Shown: positions 44,553 to 64,000 of the stretch, one piece after another
Layout of the letters: every line of letters begins with the position of its first letter
How positions within the stretch are numbered: the first letter of the stretch is position 1
Source of the DNA: SAR202 cluster bacterium AC-409-J13_OGT_754m
GTDB lineage: Bacteria > Chloroflexota > Dehalococcoidia > Lucifugimonadales > GCA-2712585
DNA: 64,000 bases
Assembly (NCBI GenBank): GCA_009391235.1
Contig: VEXD01000002.1
Span: forward strand, 1 to 64,000
Direction: 5' to 3'
Notes under the pieces: model-generated
The model's input: only the letters and a program-made list of their open reading frames with translations
Told to the model about the DNA's origin: nothing
The model's database searches: none
Made by a program: the position numbers and the translations under genes

Positions 44553-44649
44553 GGGAGTGGATGGGGCCCGGTGGCTCTCACGGACTTCAAATCCGCTGTA
44601 TCCCGCTAGAACCGGGATGGGAGGGTTCGACTCCCTCCCACTCCCGCCA
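44553..44649 (+). tRNA. selC: Selenocysteine tRNA (anticodon UCA)
   Basis: This 97-nt gene, with encoded CCA end, has the features special to tRNA-Sec. The acceptor stem is 8 bp (GGGAGTGG with CCACTCCC), stacked on a 5-bp T stem (GAGGG/CCCTC) to give the bacterial 8+5 arrangement. The anticodon arm CGGA-CTTCAAA-TCCG holds UCA (44587-44589), which reads UGA. A long variable arm (TCCCG...CGGGA) follows, and G is the discriminator base as in E. coli selC. It sits alone between trxA and the MNT/HEPN pair. It implies that SelA, SelB and SelD exist elsewhere in the genome; none is in the window. Confidence 0.95.
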
Positions 44650-58600: not shown

Positions 58601-58645
58601 TGGACCGGAAGAGGGGATTCTAACCCCCGACCTTCTCCTTGGCAA
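58601..58645 (-). repeat. tRNA-Gly(GCC) 3'-half remnant, copy 1 (att-like)
   Basis: On the minus strand the 45 bases read as tRNA-Gly from the anticodon loop TTGCCAA to CCA, with T loop TTAGAAT and acceptor side CTTCCGG. It differs from copy 2 by two bases; one spoils the acceptor stem. No 5' half precedes it. The break at the anticodon loop is where tyrosine integrases commonly cross over, so this is a probable old attachment site. The rest of 58550-58769 shows no gene. Confidence 0.8.
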
Positions 58646-58769
58646 TAACAATGACTGACCCATTAGCTTGCAAATGGATGTAAACCTATGAAGCTATTCA
58701 CGCCTAAATCTATAAGCCTATGTAAGCCAATGGCAATGGGCGTCTGCGACCAAGTCTGCGAATTTGGAA

Positions 58770-59063
58770 TTATGAAAGCAAGATGTCTAGCTGTTGCTCT
58801 ATGGCAGACCGGACGCGTCCTTCAAATGGACGGGCCATAAAAGGTAACTCGGATTCGATGATGATCTCATCATCAGTCACCAGGAAAGTGCCTTTGATAT
58901 TCATGCCATAAGTGTGGAAGGCGAAGCGCAACACGTTACCATCCCATTGCTGTTGTATATTCGAGACATTATCACCAGCCTTTTCCATGAATCCTGGTAG
59001 GATCTGACCGGCCAACTGCACCGCAGAATCCATAGTCATGTTGTGATGGCGTCTGATTTCCAT
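58770..59063 (-). CDS. Polyhydroxyalkanoic acid system family protein
   Basis: The 97-residue protein resembles the PHA granule-region family: MEIRRHHNMTMDSAVQLAGQILPGFMEKAGDNVSNIQQQWDGNVLRFAFHTYGMNIKGTFLVTDDEIIIESELPFMARPFEGRVRSAIEQQL. In proteobacteria members are encoded near PHA-granule genes; no PHA gene is nearby here. It lies within the module flanked by the tRNA-Gly half repeats and is divergent from the DHH gene, with a 17-bp inverted repeat between them. Base composition is richer in G+C than the surrounding island. Confidence 0.85.
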   Translation of the reverse strand: MEIRRHHNMTMDSAVQLAGQILPGFMEKAGDNVSNIQQQWDGNVLRFAFHTYGMNIKGTFLVTDDEIIIESELPFMARPFEGRVRSAIEQQLDILLS

Positions 59064-59101
59064 GTTTGCCTCTGGGGGCAGTATAGTCTAATGAACGACT
59101 T

Positions 59102-59145
59102 CCTTCCTTAATATTACTGAGTAATAATAGTAATATTAAGGAAGG
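59102..59145. promoter_or_regulatory. 17-bp perfect inverted repeat upstream of DHH gene
   Basis: CCTTCCTTAATATTACT and its exact complement are separated by ten bases (GAGTAATAAT). It lies in the divergent gap, ending 20 bases before the DHH ATG with its ribosome site just outside. The core ATTACTGAGTAATA (59113-59126) recurs at 62848-62861, suggesting a shared operator or a family of hairpins. Confidence 0.7.
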
Positions 59146-59165
59146 CTAATTCAGGAGATCGAAAA

Positions 59166-59990
59166 ATGAAGGTTCTATACCATGATGGATGTGATGATGG
59201 ATTCGGAGCCGCTTACGCTATTTGGCTCAAACATGGGTACCAAGCCGAATATATTCCAGTCCAGCACGGGCAACCTTTTCCGGATGTCTCATTTGATGAG
59301 ACTGTTTATGTGGTCGACTTCTCGTATCCGCGTGACATACTCCAGAGCGTTGCCGCTCGGTGCAAACTGGTTGTGTTAGATCATCATAAAACTGCAATGG
59401 ATGACTTAGCAGATTTGCCATTCGCACATTTTGATATGAATAAATCTGGTGCTGTCTTGGCATGGGAATATTTTCATCCAAATAAACCCATTCCCCTGTT
59501 ATTGGAATACGTACAAGATTACGACCTATGGACTAAAGAACTCCCTCATACTGAAGAGAATAAAGCCTGGAGGCGATCATTTCCAAGGACATTCGATAGT
59601 TGGAAGGAAATGGATCTAGTTGTTTCTAGTGATTGCAGATGGAAGACAGAAGGGGAAGCGATATTGCGCTCCGAGAGAATACAGATTCAACAGAGAGTTG
59701 CAAAGGCATTTGAAGTAACAATTGACACCCATGTAGTACTTGCAGTAAATGAGACACAACATGGTAGTGAGGTAGCCGGTGAACTCGCCAAGAATACCCG
59801 ATACCCTTTTGGGGCATGCTTTTCTGTACAGGGTGATGGTCTCAAGGTATGGAGTTTACGCTCGGATAGGAATCTAGGAGATTTTGATGTGAGTGCAGTA
59901 GCCAAGTTAAGAGGAGGTGGCGGTCACCGGAACGCGGCCGGATTCAAAGAATCAGCCGAGCACCCAATATTGCTATCTAAGTCCAGTTGA
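59166..59990 (+). CDS. DHH/DHHA1 family phosphoesterase
   Basis: The 274-residue protein has the DHH motifs: LYHDGCDDGFGAAYAIWL (first metal aspartates), VYVVDFSYP, LVVLDHHKTA (the DHH triad), DYDLW, and a C-terminal DHHA1 domain ending LRGGGGHRNAAGF. Substrates in the superfamily range from oligoribonucleotides and cyclic dinucleotides to pAp. The layout resembles small nucleotide phosphoesterases; no CBS or RNA-binding domain is present. ATG follows CAGGAGA. It is inside the tRNA-Gly-repeat module and may be cargo. Confidence 0.9.
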   Translation: MKVLYHDGCDDGFGAAYAIWLKHGYQAEYIPVQHGQPFPDVSFDETVYVVDFSYPRDILQSVAARCKLVVLDHHKTAMDDLADLPFAHFDMNKSGAVLAWEYFHPNKPIPLLLEYVQDYDLWTKELPHTEENKAWRRSFPRTFDSWKEMDLVVSSDCRWKTEGEAILRSERIQIQQRVAKAFEVTIDTHVVLAVNETQHGSEVAGELAKNTRYPFGACFSVQGDGLKVWSLRSDRNLGDFDVSAVAKLRGGGGHRNAAGFKESAEHPILLSKSS

Positions 59991-60022
59991 CGACATTGCC
60001 CTCTACTGACTAAGGGGTAAAA

Positions 60023-60061
60023 CAATGGTTCCATAGGGGGCGACCCATCATGGAACCATTG
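60023..60061. repeat. 12-bp inverted repeat downstream of DHH gene
   Basis: CAATGGTTCCAT pairs exactly with ATGGAACCATTG across a 15-base loop, beginning 33 bases after the DHH stop codon. No T-tract follows, so it may be a stabilising 3' hairpin or factor-dependent terminator. Confidence 0.7.
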
Positions 60062-60239
60062 CCATGGGATAGAAAGTCCCATGTGAATGTCCCATGTGAT
60101 AGACGGGACAGTACAATTGTAACATCTTAGTAAATATAGTTGTTTTTGTCCTGCTCGCGGCTGAAGAATCAATTGGTGCACAAACTGGTGTGCAAAAGGA
60201 GCGGGCTGAGACCAAGTCTGTGGATTCGTGCCTAATAAA

Positions 60240-60284
60240 TGGAGCGGAAGAGGGGATTCTAACCCCCGACCCTCTCCTTGGCAA
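60240..60284 (-). repeat. tRNA-Gly(GCC) 3'-half remnant, copy 2 (att-like)
   Basis: On the minus strand it reads TTGCCAA (anticodon loop, GCC), GGAGA, GGGTC, T arm GGGGG-TTAGAAT-CCCCT, acceptor CTTCCGC, T discriminator, CCA. This is a perfect tRNA-Gly 3' half, including CCA. The bases before the loop do not complete the anticodon stem, so the gene is broken at the crossover point. T-loop position 56 is A instead of the universal C, in both copies. Confidence 0.88.
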
Positions 60285-60392
60285 TGAGGGGGTTCCCTGT
60301 TTCAGTATAGCCCCACACGTTCCCGTGTACCAAGAAGAGTATCTAACCGTGCCACTTGTGGGGTTCGCTGTACCTCGGTGTTACTGTAAATT

Positions 60393-60412
60393 TTACTGTA
60401 AAAAGAATTTTG
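60393..60412 (+). repeat. TTACTGTAAAAAGAAT repeat, copy 1
   Basis: Twenty bases starting TTACTGTAAAAAGAAT and ending TTG occur here and at 62471-62490 with one mismatch. A partial copy TTACTGTAAA immediately precedes this one (60381-60390). Both lie within 60-160 bases upstream of plus-strand genes of the island. Confidence 0.6.
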
Positions 60413-60568
60413 GTATTATTGGTAATGTCGGATAGTAATATTGTAATCGGTTCCCCGCTTCCGTTAAGATGTGCTTCCCCCAGCTTGCGAACTGAATGAC
60501 CCATCCGGAAGTTCCAAAGTAAGAGAGACTCTCAACTCGGCTCAAAACCATCAAACAGAGGTAGTTTC

Positions 60569-61219
60569 ATGAAAAGGATAGTCAGACAAAACAAGATTGC
60601 AAAACAGTTACTTAGTAGCACCAAGTTAGTCCGTATAATACCGGCTTTGCTACTTAGCATGATCCTAAGCATATCGATAGTTGCTTGTGGAGGAGGCAGT
60701 GATGACACTGAGCCTACAGCATCATCAAGTTCAACTGCGATCCAAACGACATCTGACTCCAACGGATCGACAGCTTCATCTCAAGCCGCTAAAGGAGCAT
60801 CTGCATCAGACGAACCAGCCAGAGAAACGAGTGTGGGAACAGCTGAATTCTTTGTCTCTGCTGGCGAATTCGAAAATACGGAGATTGAAGTCAACGCAGG
60901 TGACCTGGTTCGAATTAGATTCCAAGCGGTAGGTAGATCCCAAGGTGAGGGTGATCCTTCTGTATTAGCAGCTTTTTGGGCAGACGAGTCAGAAGGTTCG
61001 GGTGCTAACCTGGGCGGAGGGGTAGGAGAAGGAGAGATTACCTTAGTTGTTTTGGATACCCTGAGTGATACCATTTATTCCGGAGATACAGTCGCTGCCG
61101 ACACAGTAGACATTGATATTGAATTGTCAGGAATTCACATCATTAGTTTTGTAAATATGCATATCTACAAAGCAAATGATGTGTTGGTGGAATGGACTAT
61201 CAATCCAACATCCCAATGA
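60569..61219 (+). CDS. Secreted lipoprotein of unknown function
   Basis: The 216-residue protein has a long basic N-terminus, a hydrophobic signal and a lipobox (SISIVACGGG), then a Ser/Thr-rich linker (about residues 48-85), and a beta-rich domain with EIEVNAGDLVRIRFQAVGRSQGEGDP and DIDIELSGIHIISFVNMHIYKANDVLVEW. It is expected on the outside of the membrane. No family recognised. ATG follows AGAGGTAG. Stand-alone gene in the accessory region. Confidence 0.72.
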   Translation: MKRIVRQNKIAKQLLSSTKLVRIIPALLLSMILSISIVACGGGSDDTEPTASSSSTAIQTTSDSNGSTASSQAAKGASASDEPARETSVGTAEFFVSAGEFENTEIEVNAGDLVRIRFQAVGRSQGEGDPSVLAAFWADESEGSGANLGGGVGEGEITLVVLDTLSDTIYSGDTVAADTVDIDIELSGIHIISFVNMHIYKANDVLVEWTINPTSQ

Positions 61220-61309
61220 GAAGACTTAGGCCTCTCTGTATATCACAGAGTTTAGCAACCAAGGAAAGACGTCTAGCCTTATCATGATCCTCGGCTAGTA
61301 GGGTGCCAA

Positions 61310-61714
61310 TCAACGATTTATCATCAGCGTGGCGGTACTTTTAAAGTAGTCCTCCATTTGTGTGGAGTCATCCACCGAAATCTCCATAGAGTCCAGTGCG
61401 GAGATCATGTGTGTCACCCATGTGTCCCTTTCTTCCTGGCCTATGGGAAATTGCATGTGGCGATGGCGAAGTCTAGGGTGGCCCCGCTCCAGGAAATATC
61501 GGTGTGGCCCTCCCCAGTACTGCGACAGGAAAGCGGCTAGGTGGGCTTTACCTGGCTCCAGGTCTTCTGGATAGAGGGATCGTAGAGAGAGGTCCGCTTC
61601 TACAAACTCATAGAATCGTTCAACAAGTTCCACAAAGAACTCATGCCCTCCCACTCGTTCGTATGTGGTGGCAACTTCATTTTGGAAACCTGAATTATCT
61701 TGAGGTGTATTCAT
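61310..61714 (-). CDS. glbO: Group II truncated haemoglobin
   Basis: The 134-residue protein has the trHbO pattern: VGGHEFFVELVERFYEFVEADLSLRSLYPEDLEPGKAHLAAFLSQYWGGPHRYFLERGHPRLRHRHMQFPIG, with the proximal histidine in LRHRHMQF and the WGGP segment. It binds O2 or detoxifies NO/peroxide in the cytoplasm. It ends a minus-strand cluster with small membrane protein genes upstream (61740 and 61849), maybe cotranscribed, 26 bases apart. Confidence 0.93.
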   Translation of the reverse strand: MNTPQDNSGFQNEVATTYERVGGHEFFVELVERFYEFVEADLSLRSLYPEDLEPGKAHLAAFLSQYWGGPHRYFLERGHPRLRHRHMQFPIGQEERDTWVTHMISALDSMEISVDDSTQMEDYFKSTATLMINR

Positions 61715-61739
61715 ACCTATAAAAAAGGAATTAATCCTC

Positions 61740-61832
61740 TCACCACTCCTTGTCTTTAGAACGAATCACCGAATAAACAAGAATCCCTACTATTAGAACA
61801 AATATACCTAATGCGCCCCACAGTAAGTTCAT
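61740..61832 (-). CDS. 30-residue single-helix membrane protein
   Basis: A gene too short for the ORF track. It encodes an N-terminus MNLLWGALG, one transmembrane helix (IFVLIVGILVYSVI) and a charged end RSKDKEW. A good ribosome site AAGGAGT lies seven bases before the ATG, strong support for translation. It is 16 bases after the stop of the 78-residue membrane protein and 26 bases before the globin gene on the same strand. It may be a small subunit of a membrane complex; no family recognised. Confidence 0.7.
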   Translation of the reverse strand: MNLLWGALGIFVLIVGILVYSVIRSKDKEW

Positions 61833-61848
61833 GATTTACTCCTTATGC

Positions 61849-62085
61849 TCACGCTCTTTGGTTAGCAATAACCCAGTAGCCTGCTAGAAAGATTACAGCT
61901 AAGCATGCAAACAAAGTTATCGTCCATAATATAAAACTTGGCTTGCTAATTTCTTCCTGTTTCCTAATTACACGACCATCCTCAATAACAACAACTTCAC
62001 CATTTCTCCGTACGTTATAAAGGAAAAAAGCTATGCCTGCGACAGCTAAACTTATTAAGATTGTTCTAATCAAATCCCAATCCAA
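61849..62085 (-). CDS. Small two-helix membrane protein (78 aa)
   Basis: The protein has two hydrophobic segments (IRTILISLAVAGIAFFLYNV and FILWTITLFACLAVIFLAGYWVI) separated by a charged loop with a beta-like turn (GEVVVIEDGRVIRKQEE). It begins MDWDL. It heads a likely operon with the 30-residue protein and the globin. Upstream at about 62090 is the palindromic CAGTAATATTACTAG motif. No known family. Confidence 0.7.
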   Translation of the reverse strand: MDWDLIRTILISLAVAGIAFFLYNVRRNGEVVVIEDGRVIRKQEEISKPSFILWTITLFACLAVIFLAGYWVIANQRA

Positions 62086-62133
62086 TACAGTAATATTACT
62101 AGTAATACTTGTCAGTTGCTTTTGGGTATTTTG

Positions 62134-62394
62134 TCATTGCGTGAGTCTCTTCACTCTCATAGAAGCCTTTCTCAAGGATATTAGCATCGGCCGGAAGCTG
62201 AGTACGTTGTCTACAATTGGTTTGGAGATTTGACCTCGTTGCCACCCCAACAGTAGTTGCACCAGCACCTCTGTTATAGCTTCCTCATCATCTCGGCACT
62301 CCTGAATAGACCTTTTCCAACTTTCAACTTCGGAAGCCCTTTCACCAGCTTCTGCGCCCCGCTCTACGCTGCTATCTTCGTTAGACCTTTTCAT
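62134..62394 (-). CDS. Hypothetical helical protein (86 aa)
   Basis: The 86-residue frame reads MKRSNEDSSVERGAEAGERASEVESWKRSIQECRDDEEAITEVLVQLLLGWQ, charged and helical, then a basic end. The ATG is preceded by a weak AGAGGC site. There is no domain that I recognise; the composition is reasonable for a soluble helical protein, but a chance ORF cannot be excluded. Confidence 0.5.
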   Translation of the reverse strand: MKRSNEDSSVERGAEAGERASEVESWKRSIQECRDDEEAITEVLVQLLLGWQRGQISKPIVDNVLSFRPMLISLRKASMRVKRLTQ

Positions 62395-62412
62395 GCCTCT
62401 ATATTACACTAA

Positions 62413-62456
62413 GCGTCTACTGAACGGGTAAGCTGGAGTAACCGCCTACTGGCAGT
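62413..62456 (+). repeat. 44-bp direct repeat, copy 1
   Basis: GCGTCTACTGAACGGGTAAG and following bases up to CTGGCAGT match 63215-63258 at 40 of 44 positions in the same orientation. The two copies bracket the paired small genes at 62542 and 62919. Confidence 0.75.
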
Positions 62457-62470
62457 CCTTTTCCTTGGTC

Positions 62471-62490
62471 TTACTGTAAAAAGAATGTTG
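62471..62490 (+). repeat. TTACTGTAAAAAGAAT repeat, copy 2
   Basis: Nineteen of twenty bases equal the copy at 60393-60412. It lies about 50 bases upstream of the first paired small gene, right after the 44-bp repeat, with TAGTAATAT following. Confidence 0.6.
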
Positions 62491-62541
62491 TAGTAATATG
62501 TACCATGATAATATCTTAAGGCTAAATATGAAGGAGGAGTC

Positions 62542-62811
62542 ATGAAAATTATAATCAGTTCGGAACTTACAAAAGGTTACGAGCTTTGGAAAAATCTTTT
62601 TTTGAGTACAGATTCTCAAAGAGAAAAATATGGGGTTAAAGTTTTGGCATATGGTCATGCCCAAGATAATGAAAATAAAATTTACCAAGTTCTTGAAGTA
62701 GAGTCTATGGAGAGAATGCAAGAAGGTTTGCAAGACCCTGAGATAGCTAAACTTAGAACAGATGCAGGTGTTAATTTAGATTCTCAAGAAGTTGTATTCT
62801 TAGTTGAGTGA
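62542..62811 (+). CDS. Small paired alpha/beta protein, paralogue A
   Basis: The 89-residue protein (MKIIISSELTKGYELWKNLFLSTDSQREKYGVKVLAYGHAQDNENKIYQVLEVESMERMQEGLQDPEIAKLRTDAGVNLDSQEVVFLVE) follows a beta-alpha-beta-beta-alpha-beta pattern like dimeric ferredoxin-like barrel proteins. It shares the ending DPE...R.(D/E)AGV..DSQEVV with the gene at 62919, so the two are tandem paralogues. ATG follows AGGAGGAG. A 16-bp hairpin lies just after its stop. Function unknown. Confidence 0.8.
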   Translation: MKIIISSELTKGYELWKNLFLSTDSQREKYGVKVLAYGHAQDNENKIYQVLEVESMERMQEGLQDPEIAKLRTDAGVNLDSQEVVFLVE

Positions 62812-62825
62812 GATAAGGCTAACAG

Positions 62826-62862
62826 GTATTACTCAGTAATTTTAGTAATTACTGAGTAATAC
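62826..62862 (+). terminator. 16-bp AT-rich hairpin after paralogue A
   Basis: GTATTACTCAGTAATT and its exact complement with a five-base loop start 15 bases after the stop codon of paralogue A, a usual place for a terminator. It has no T-run, and shares ATTACTGAGTAATA with the repeat upstream of the DHH gene, so an operator for paralogue B is the alternative. Confidence 0.55.
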
Positions 62863-62918
62863 TCGACAATCTATCTCGGGTCTTTATAATCTAAATTGAG
62901 AATAGGAAGGGAAAAGAA

Positions 62919-63212
62919 ATGAGATTTCTGACAACATTCAAAAAAACCAAAGAATGCAGCTTTGAAAGCTGGTTGAAACTAGTTGATGACTTAAAGTCTC
63001 ATATGCAAAAAAATGGACTAAAGCTAATAGTGGCAACGGAAACCGAAGATGGAACAAGAATTTATGATATAGCTGAAGCGGAAACTATGGAAGGCATCAC
63101 GGCATTTATGTCTGACCCAGAGGTAATTAGAATGAGACAAGAAGCTGGTGTAGATACTGATAGCCAAGAAGTAGTCAGTGCCGTAAGTGAATATCACATC
63201 TTTCAGAATTAA
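62919..63212 (+). CDS. Small paired alpha/beta protein, paralogue B
   Basis: The 97-residue protein resembles paralogue A over its whole length: a KxxxFESWLKLVDDLKSHMQKNGLKLIVATETEDGTRIYDIAEAETMEG core and DPEVIRMRQEAGVDTDSQEVV at the end, then SEYHIFQN. It probably forms the same dimeric alpha/beta barrel, and A and B could make a heterodimer. ATG follows AGGAAGGG. The 44-bp repeat copy 2 follows three bases after its stop codon. Confidence 0.8.
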   Translation: MRFLTTFKKTKECSFESWLKLVDDLKSHMQKNGLKLIVATETEDGTRIYDIAEAETMEGITAFMSDPEVIRMRQEAGVDTDSQEVVSAVSEYHIFQN

Positions 63213-63214
63213 TA

Positions 63215-63258
63215 GCGTCTATTGAACGGGTCAGCTGCAGTAACCGTCTACTGGCAGT
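63215..63258 (+). repeat. 44-bp direct repeat, copy 2
   Basis: Copy 2 of the repeat described at 62413-62456 (40/44 identical). It contains an imperfect dyad CTGCAGTA...TACTGGCAG that could form a short hairpin. Confidence 0.75.
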
Positions 63259-63355
63259 ACGTATACGTTGAACGGTTATGCCTATACCGAATGTAAGCGT
63301 GATTAATGGCGATGCAGTTTGAAGTTTATGCGCTAGCGCCTTCTGAGTTATCAGT

Positions 63356-63904
63356 TCACTCTGCTCTTCTCATAGTGAATATTCCCAAGATGACTAAAAC
63401 TAGACTATTAAGCATCCATAAAGGTATCACAATGCTTTCACCGTTGTTTGATAAAAACTCAGGACTCGAGATAGCAATAGAAGCAAACGTTACTAAGGAG
63501 ACAACTGATAATAAACCCGATAGCCATTTAGGGAAAAGGTTGGTTTGTAAATATCCTATTCCAGTTATGAAATATCCAAGATACATAATAGACCAAGCTG
63601 TCATTCCAACCGCTTCTGCAATTAAGTCAGATTCGGCGCTTATTTCTGTACTGTTTATAGCATCTCCAACAAGTCCCATGGTCAAACCAACAACTATTAT
63701 TAGTAATCCTGTATCAATGAAAGGATTTCTTGCAACATTCCTTGTCATCATAAAAGCTAGTGGGATAGTAACCAATGCATAAGCAGCAATTTTTTCTGTA
63801 TGCGCCGTACCTAGAAGTCCTGTTTCGCCTAGAACCATATAAACAGCGATTGAACCAAGACCCGCGATTATAAACAATATTCCATTCATCATTTTAGCTG
63901 TCAT
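63356..63904 (-). CDS. Polytopic membrane protein of unknown function
   Basis: The 182-residue protein has about six transmembrane segments and begins MTAKMMNGILFIIAGLGSIAVYMVLGETGLLG. Loops are short. I do not recognise the family; the layout loosely recalls DUF4386-like membrane proteins, but that is not firm. Start: ATG at 63904, with a GGACGG site. It is at the window edge; bases 63905-64000 hold its likely promoter and nothing else seen. Confidence 0.72.
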   Translation of the reverse strand: MTAKMMNGILFIIAGLGSIAVYMVLGETGLLGTAHTEKIAAYALVTIPLAFMMTRNVARNPFIDTGLLIIVVGLTMGLVGDAINSTEISAESDLIAEAVGMTAWSIMYLGYFITGIGYLQTNLFPKWLSGLLSVVSLVTFASIAISSPEFLSNNGESIVIPLWMLNSLVLVILGIFTMRRAE

Positions 63905-64000
63905 AATTTACCGTCCTAAAACTATATTTTATCATTTCATAATAAGTCCCAGCTACAAGTTTTTCGGCTGTTGTTAGGTAGGTAGCGGATATATATCTAT

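Follow-up and report, generated by a model that had tools for sequence, protein, structure and literature searches.

Layout and contents of the tRNA-Gly(GCC) locus

The window analysed here comprises bases 1-64000 of a 135-kb contig (C2) belonging to a 1.03-Mb genome which is 70% complete (G000). We compared it with two genomes of a sister genus (G002 and G005, which share that genus) and with two further genomes of the same family (G003 and G006). Towards its end the window contains two 45-bp copies of the 3' half of tRNA-Gly(GCC), both of which run from the anticodon loop (TTGCCAA) through CCA (Table 1). As a preliminary description of this DNA had claimed, these copies are identical at 43/45 bases, share one orientation and start 1639 bp apart. 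They were the sole matches when the window was searched with ≤ 11 mismatches per 45 bases, while a shuffled window gave 0 matches at ≤ 14. ARAGORN and Rfam found no tRNA-Gly within the window; the intact tRNA-Gly(GCC) gene of matching 3' sequence, which the preliminary description had proposed to look for, was located by genome search at C2:64855-64929 on the minus strand, its start 855 bases beyond the window end, with tRNA-Phe standing behind it. It is on the same contig and in the same orientation as the two copies, 4.6 kb from the module. Read in the direction of the tRNA, the order is tRNA-Gly, element 2 (60285-64854), copy 2, element 1, copy 1 and a LysE gene. The locus is a tandem array of two elements at tRNA-Gly(GCC), of which the 1.6-kb element 1 is the distal member.

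Table 1 Features of the two elements, with coordinates in the window.
Feature	Position	Strand	Remarks
Copy 1, 3' half of tRNA-Gly(GCC) from anticodon loop through CCA; forms the distal end of element 1	58601..58645	-	5 mismatches to intact G000 tRNA, 3 to G005 halves
Distal tail of element 1	58646..58770	-	Adjacent to half copies in G002 (L035, L037) and G005 (L039) are homologous tails: 86%, 81% and 73% identity
Distal arm-like repeat of element 1, CAGACTTGGTCGCAG, includes GACCAAGTCTG	58744..58767	-	Best match between element 1 ends, p = 0.005
PHA_gran_rgn-family gene, 97 aa	58770..59063	-	PF09650, E 5.5e-14
DHH phosphoesterase gene, 274 aa	59166..59990	+	phrog_4771, E 2.6e-71; Pfam DHHA1 below its cut-off
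Tandem 12-mer TTTTGCACACCA/GTTTGTGCACCA, ~+42 after copy 2	60174..60197	-	9/12 identical; shuffling gives p = 0.013
Proximal arm-like repeat of element 1, CAGACTTGGTCTCAG	60206..60222	-	From comparison of island ends
Signature TTTATTAGGCACGAA, immediately 3' of CCA	60225..60239	-	Common to tRNA-Gly(GCC), tRNA-Thr(CGT) and G002 islands
Copy 2, 3' half of tRNA-Gly(GCC), where elements 1 and 2 join	60240..60284	-	1 mismatch to G005 halves, 3 to G000 tRNA
Element 2: lipoprotein, bacterial globin, small ORFs; without integrase	60285..64000, on to C2:64854 beyond window	.	4.6 kb
Distal arm-like repeat of element 2, TTTACAGTAAAA/TTTACAGTAACA	60380..60403	-	Inverted match to TTTACTGCAAAG/TTTACTGCAATG beside tRNA, ~C2:64775-64798
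Element 2 block with 86-aa ORF	62142..62444	-	95% identical to block within G002 tRNA-Pro island

The only convincing genes of element 1 are those encoding the PHA_gran_rgn protein and the DHH phosphoesterase, and the profile matches agree with the earlier claim that the module carries a DHH and a PHA-family gene without an integrase. Neither an integrase nor a serine recombinase was found in elements 1 and 2. The packaging-hijack genes by which PICI-like phage satellites are recognised were not found in element 1 by Pfam, PHROGs or NCBIfam, and PADLOC gave 0 defence matches. A PDB search gave only a marginal match for the DHH protein, which in GTDB and IMG/VR has only distant relatives (27-39%), those in G002 excepted.

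Two non-coding stretches of element 1 also recur elsewhere. The first, GCCTCTGGGGGCAGTATAGTCT (59066-59092), lies upstream of the PHA gene and has exact matches in further genomes of the order (L146 and L147), two of them on one contig; this recurring 24-bp stretch was rejected as an att site and looks like a shared promoter or leader. The second is a 76-bp stretch 3' of the DHH gene (60050-60125), which has a 97% match at G000:C15:3494-3570 (L014), ~3.5 kb from the tRNA-Pro(GGG) on that contig. It contains a hairpin with arms that differ between the copies, plus a 13-bp tandem repeat, GTCCCATGTGAAT.

Could the array be something other than a pair of integrated elements? It is very improbable that a MITE-like, tRNA-derived interspersed repeat flanks two ordinary genes by chance. 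The half copy with its ~125-bp tail is indeed also found in G002 and G005, but within G000 the Gly 3' half is present solely in line with the tRNA-Gly(GCC) gene, and the other islands described below carry halves of their own tRNAs (Thr, Pro and Gly CCC). An artefact of assembly or binning is less probable still: every genome is a draft MAG, and at contig ends there are several related copies (L037, L038 and L039), but the array is internal to its 135-kb contig, the G002 islands are internal to contigs of 49, 74 and 26 kb, and the tRNA-Phe and polyamine-gene side of the locus is conserved in relatives.

Signature and repeats at the element ends

The tRNA-proximal ends of both elements have in common TTTWTTAGGCACRAA and tandem repeats of 11-12 bp. 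Among the tRNA flanks of G000, TTTWTTAGGCACRAA or a one-base variant was found right after CCA at tRNA-Gly(GCC), at tRNA-Thr(CGT) and at copy 2, and a weaker form of this signature at tRNA-Pro(GGG); it was absent from the remaining flanks, and the tRNAs which carry it are those that bear islands. The Gly(GCC) and Thr(CGT) flanks, both of which carry the signature, also have tandem 12-mers ~55 bp out with 11/12 identity, whilst the other G000 tRNA flanks (32 in all) reached ≤ 9/12. In three genomes the tRNA-Thr repeats were of TTTGACCCCCAG type, TTTGACCACCAC and TTTGACGCCCAC, with both units altered together.

A motif near each copy had been noticed in the preliminary description, and this proved to be GACCAAGTCTG, part of a repeat inside both ends of element 1: the window has it at 58748 and 60210 and nowhere else (once inside each module end), against 0.03 occurrences expected. 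For each of five complete islands we compared one end with the other, using shuffling to obtain p values. The ends matched each other in 3 of the 5: element 1 (CAGACTTGGTCKCAG), element 2 (TTACTGYAAA, inverted) and the G002 Pro island (GGATGCAGTTTG). These self-matches had a score of 12 (p = 0.005), whereas cross pairs scored ≤ 10; the G002 Thr and Gly(CCC) islands had no repeat matched at both ends. Judged by their sequence and placement, the element-specific end repeats look as arm-type sites of tyrosine integrases would look.

A further tRNA 3' half was seen at G000:C38:759-776 (L118 and L100), distant from any tRNA on its short contig. It ends in TACAGTTCCTGCCA, perhaps belongs to tRNA-Trp and is followed by TCTTTTAGGCATGAA and tandem repeats.

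Exchange of cargo between genera

Relatives of the cargo, 94-95% identical to the window, were found in G002 in integrase-free islands at tRNA-Gly(CCC), tRNA-Thr(CGT) and tRNA-Pro(GGG). The DHH block (59149-60013) is 94% identical to a G002 block adjoining a half copy at the tRNA-Gly(CCC) array, the PHA block (58771-59092) is 95% identical to the interior of the tRNA-Thr island (4.3 kb), and the block of element 2 corresponds to the interior of the tRNA-Pro island (3.3 kb). Presence or absence in close relatives had been suggested as a check on the module, and among the relatives compared its content does vary: the DHH, PHA and third blocks are at other tRNA genes in the sister genus and are absent from other relatives. 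It should be noted that this variation in content was seen between genera only, in a comparison which included one genome of the species. On the far side of the array, the LysE and binding-protein genes were not found at the tRNA-Gly locus of the relatives, all of which belong to other genera.

At fourfold sites, the three cargo ORFs of the window were 86, 91 and 100% identical to the sister genus; for two chromosomal genes, a permease and a BioD-like one, the values against G005 were 31 and 36%. A non-island stretch of 18 kb was 63-79% identical to G002 and G005, save for one 98-bp piece at the tRNA-Sec position, and the other blocks of ≥ 80% among the compared loci of both genera were nearly all tRNA genes and their flanks. 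Cargo has been transferred between genera and, because the DHH block is 94% identical across them, this gene moved recently relative to their divergence. Copy 2, moreover, is closer to the G005 halves (1 mismatch) than to the tRNA of its own genome (3). The simplest reading of these alignments is that transfer between genera would have occurred together with the attachment site.

Not all of the movement can be accounted for by exchange at attachment sites alone, since two of the cargo blocks are inside G002 islands; cargo also moves between islands by other recombination. These interior positions of the PHA and 86-aa blocks, together with the mosaic nature of the islands, would fit an alternative in which homologous recombination or transformation between the short tRNA repeats and their flanks explains the locus, with no site-specific recombinase involved today. 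We think this improbable: 45 bp is short for homologous exchange, and the signature, the matched end repeats and the half copies at other tRNA genes are left unexplained.

An integrase-free element, its possible helpers and its relation to known systems

The 1.6-kb module is likely to be an integrated element that lacks an integrase and is of the cis-mobilizable or tycheposon-like kind, for which the recombinase would be supplied in trans. A tyrosine recombinase encoded by another element would act on element 1 and join the tRNA-Gly 3' half of its circular form to the tRNA gene, leaving the intact tRNA at one end and the 3'-half copy at the other. Apart from its two cargo genes, the element would retain only the parts required in cis by a cognate integrase (a core half, TTTWTTAGGCACRAA after CCA and arm-type short repeats at both ends). 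Successive integrations would stack elements into an array, and the elements and their cargo would move among genera of the family. Repeated integration at tRNA-Gly had already been suggested for this locus, and the suggestion is strengthened by the end-matched repeats of three islands and by element 2, which separates the tRNA from copy 2. We infer that a particular integrase acts on element 1 in trans, and that the element can be excised and may be mobile at present.

Alternatively, the module may be a decayed relic of an integrative element or prophage at tRNA-Gly which lost its integrase and most of its genes and is now fixed and immobile. The missing integrase, the small size, the divergence of the copies from the tRNA (3 and 5 bases) and the degraded tails in some relatives are all compatible with decay. 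We nevertheless regard a relic as rather unlikely, given that the signature is kept in four integrase-free islands of two genera, that repeats are matched at both ends in three islands and that the DHH gene, 94% identical across genera, moved recently relative to their divergence.

Several observations count against integration of an integrase-free element at an intact tRNA gene. Neither a circular junction nor an empty site was seen, and two of the five islands have no end-matched repeat. In addition, the T loop has an A in copies 1 and 2 and a C in the intact tRNA (GGTTAGAAT vs GGTTCGAAT), and a functional tRNA should not have carried this change common to both copies. The ssrA islands of Dehalococcoides have a conserved T-loop disagreement between gene and repeats (PMC3146451), and because they also show it, their analogy hints that the crossover may lie more 3' than the anticodon loop. 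The C-to-A change is absent from the G002 and G005 halves as well as from the intact tRNA. Separately, the anticodon-stem pair is CCTCC/GGAGG in the intact tRNA vs GGAGA in all copies.

Candidates for the helper were sought among the integrases. Both PF00589 genes of G000 are Xer-like and belong to two groups conserved across the family, and were rejected. An integrase on G005:C81 was also rejected, with neither signature nor tRNA adjacent on its 5.3-kb contig. G000 and the sister genus, the genomes of which are incomplete, yielded no integrase accompanied by matching repeats. Elsewhere in the family, integrase-bearing insertions were found at G006 tRNA-Leu (L109, 378 aa), G003 tRNA-Gly(CCC) (L112, 439 aa) and G006 tRNA-Glu (L107, 393 aa). 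Like the islands described here, these have a TTTAGGCACAA-like motif next to the tRNA CCA, with tandem 11-12-mers beyond it near +55; unlike them, they encode an integrase of 378-439 aa beside the tRNA, and their repeat sequences differ. Phage-like helpers are plausible because the G006 tRNA-Leu insertion also encodes an HTH protein and Terminase_2. A search of IMG/VR with two exact att patterns gave 0 matches.

Among known systems, element 1 has, at the level of sequence, what is expected of a cis-mobilizable element (CIME): putative attL and attR bounds in the form of 45-bp halves on both sides with the intact tRNA in line, and a gene content of PHA_gran_rgn and DHH only, without integration or transfer genes. 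Tycheposons, which are 4-200 kb with a tyrosine recombinase (PMC10872708) and have been classed among satellites (PMC11389934), likewise carry cargo, occupy tRNA genes in marine bacteria and remodel genomic islands. Element 1 has the tRNA location and two cargo genes, but no tyrosine recombinase was found in elements 1 and 2 and only the two Xer-like genes genome-wide; at 1.6 kb it is outside the size range, while element 2 (4.6 kb) is within it. In additive flexible genomic islands, described from Alteromonas (PMC5217437) and with tRNA-Lys repeats from Methylophilaceae (PMC10872708), cassettes are added at a tRNA gene and marked by repeated tRNA 3' ends, and here too the cassettes are parted by such repeats. 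Those islands are a strain-level phenomenon, whereas in the present case different genera have nearly identical cargo and repeats are matched at the ends.

The ssrA islands of Dehalococcoides, from the same bacterial class, are tandem units delimited by an RNA gene together with direct repeats of the 3' end of that gene, and some units are without integration and transfer genes but keep attL and attR (PMC3146451). The tandem units and the T-loop base differing between gene and repeats are shared. However, ssrA islands use tmRNA, 20-bp repeats and serine recombinases (PMC3146451), whereas here there are several tRNA genes, halves of 33-45 bp, tyrosine-type arm-like repeats and far smaller units; the site is tRNA-Gly and not ssrA, and the elements lack DsiB. 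That the repeats are tRNA 3' halves argues against an integron or CALIN.

The idea is covered by CIMEs, tycheposons and additive flexible islands; the lineage is new for it and little explored, and element 1 stands out by its unusually small size and by the exchange between genera. More tentatively, and with some doubt on our part, the islands of marine Dehalococcoidia may be a separate class of mini-satellites that lack an integrase. These would keep only TTTTTTAGGCACGAA as a common signature, the attP core and element-specific arm sites that fit particular helper integrases, would use several tRNA genes and would act as a network through which genera exchange cargo. Little seems to have been described of the mobile elements in these uncultured bacteria of the ocean, and our searches of the SAR202 literature listed no paper devoted to them. 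The anatomy seen here (signature after CCA, tandem arm-like repeats and 3'-half copy) lets integrase-free islands be spotted in draft genomes, gene exchange between genera at small tRNA islands is documented, and helper specificity becomes testable from the repeats.

Some smaller observations were also made. The first gene after the G002 tRNA-Pro (L141:9000-9908) and the first gene after the G005 tRNA-Thr (L038:883-2226) encode proteins of unassigned function that are related to each other (E 3e-17, 26% over 197 aa) and may represent a gene of the elements. L038 (G005:C159, 3.6 kb) starts in tRNA-Thr with the signature, has at its other end a Gly 3' half of opposite orientation, and is either a mixed island or a chimeric contig. 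The window also contains a tRNA-Sec gene (44553-44649; Rfam RF01852, 72 bits), which suggests selenoprotein synthesis.
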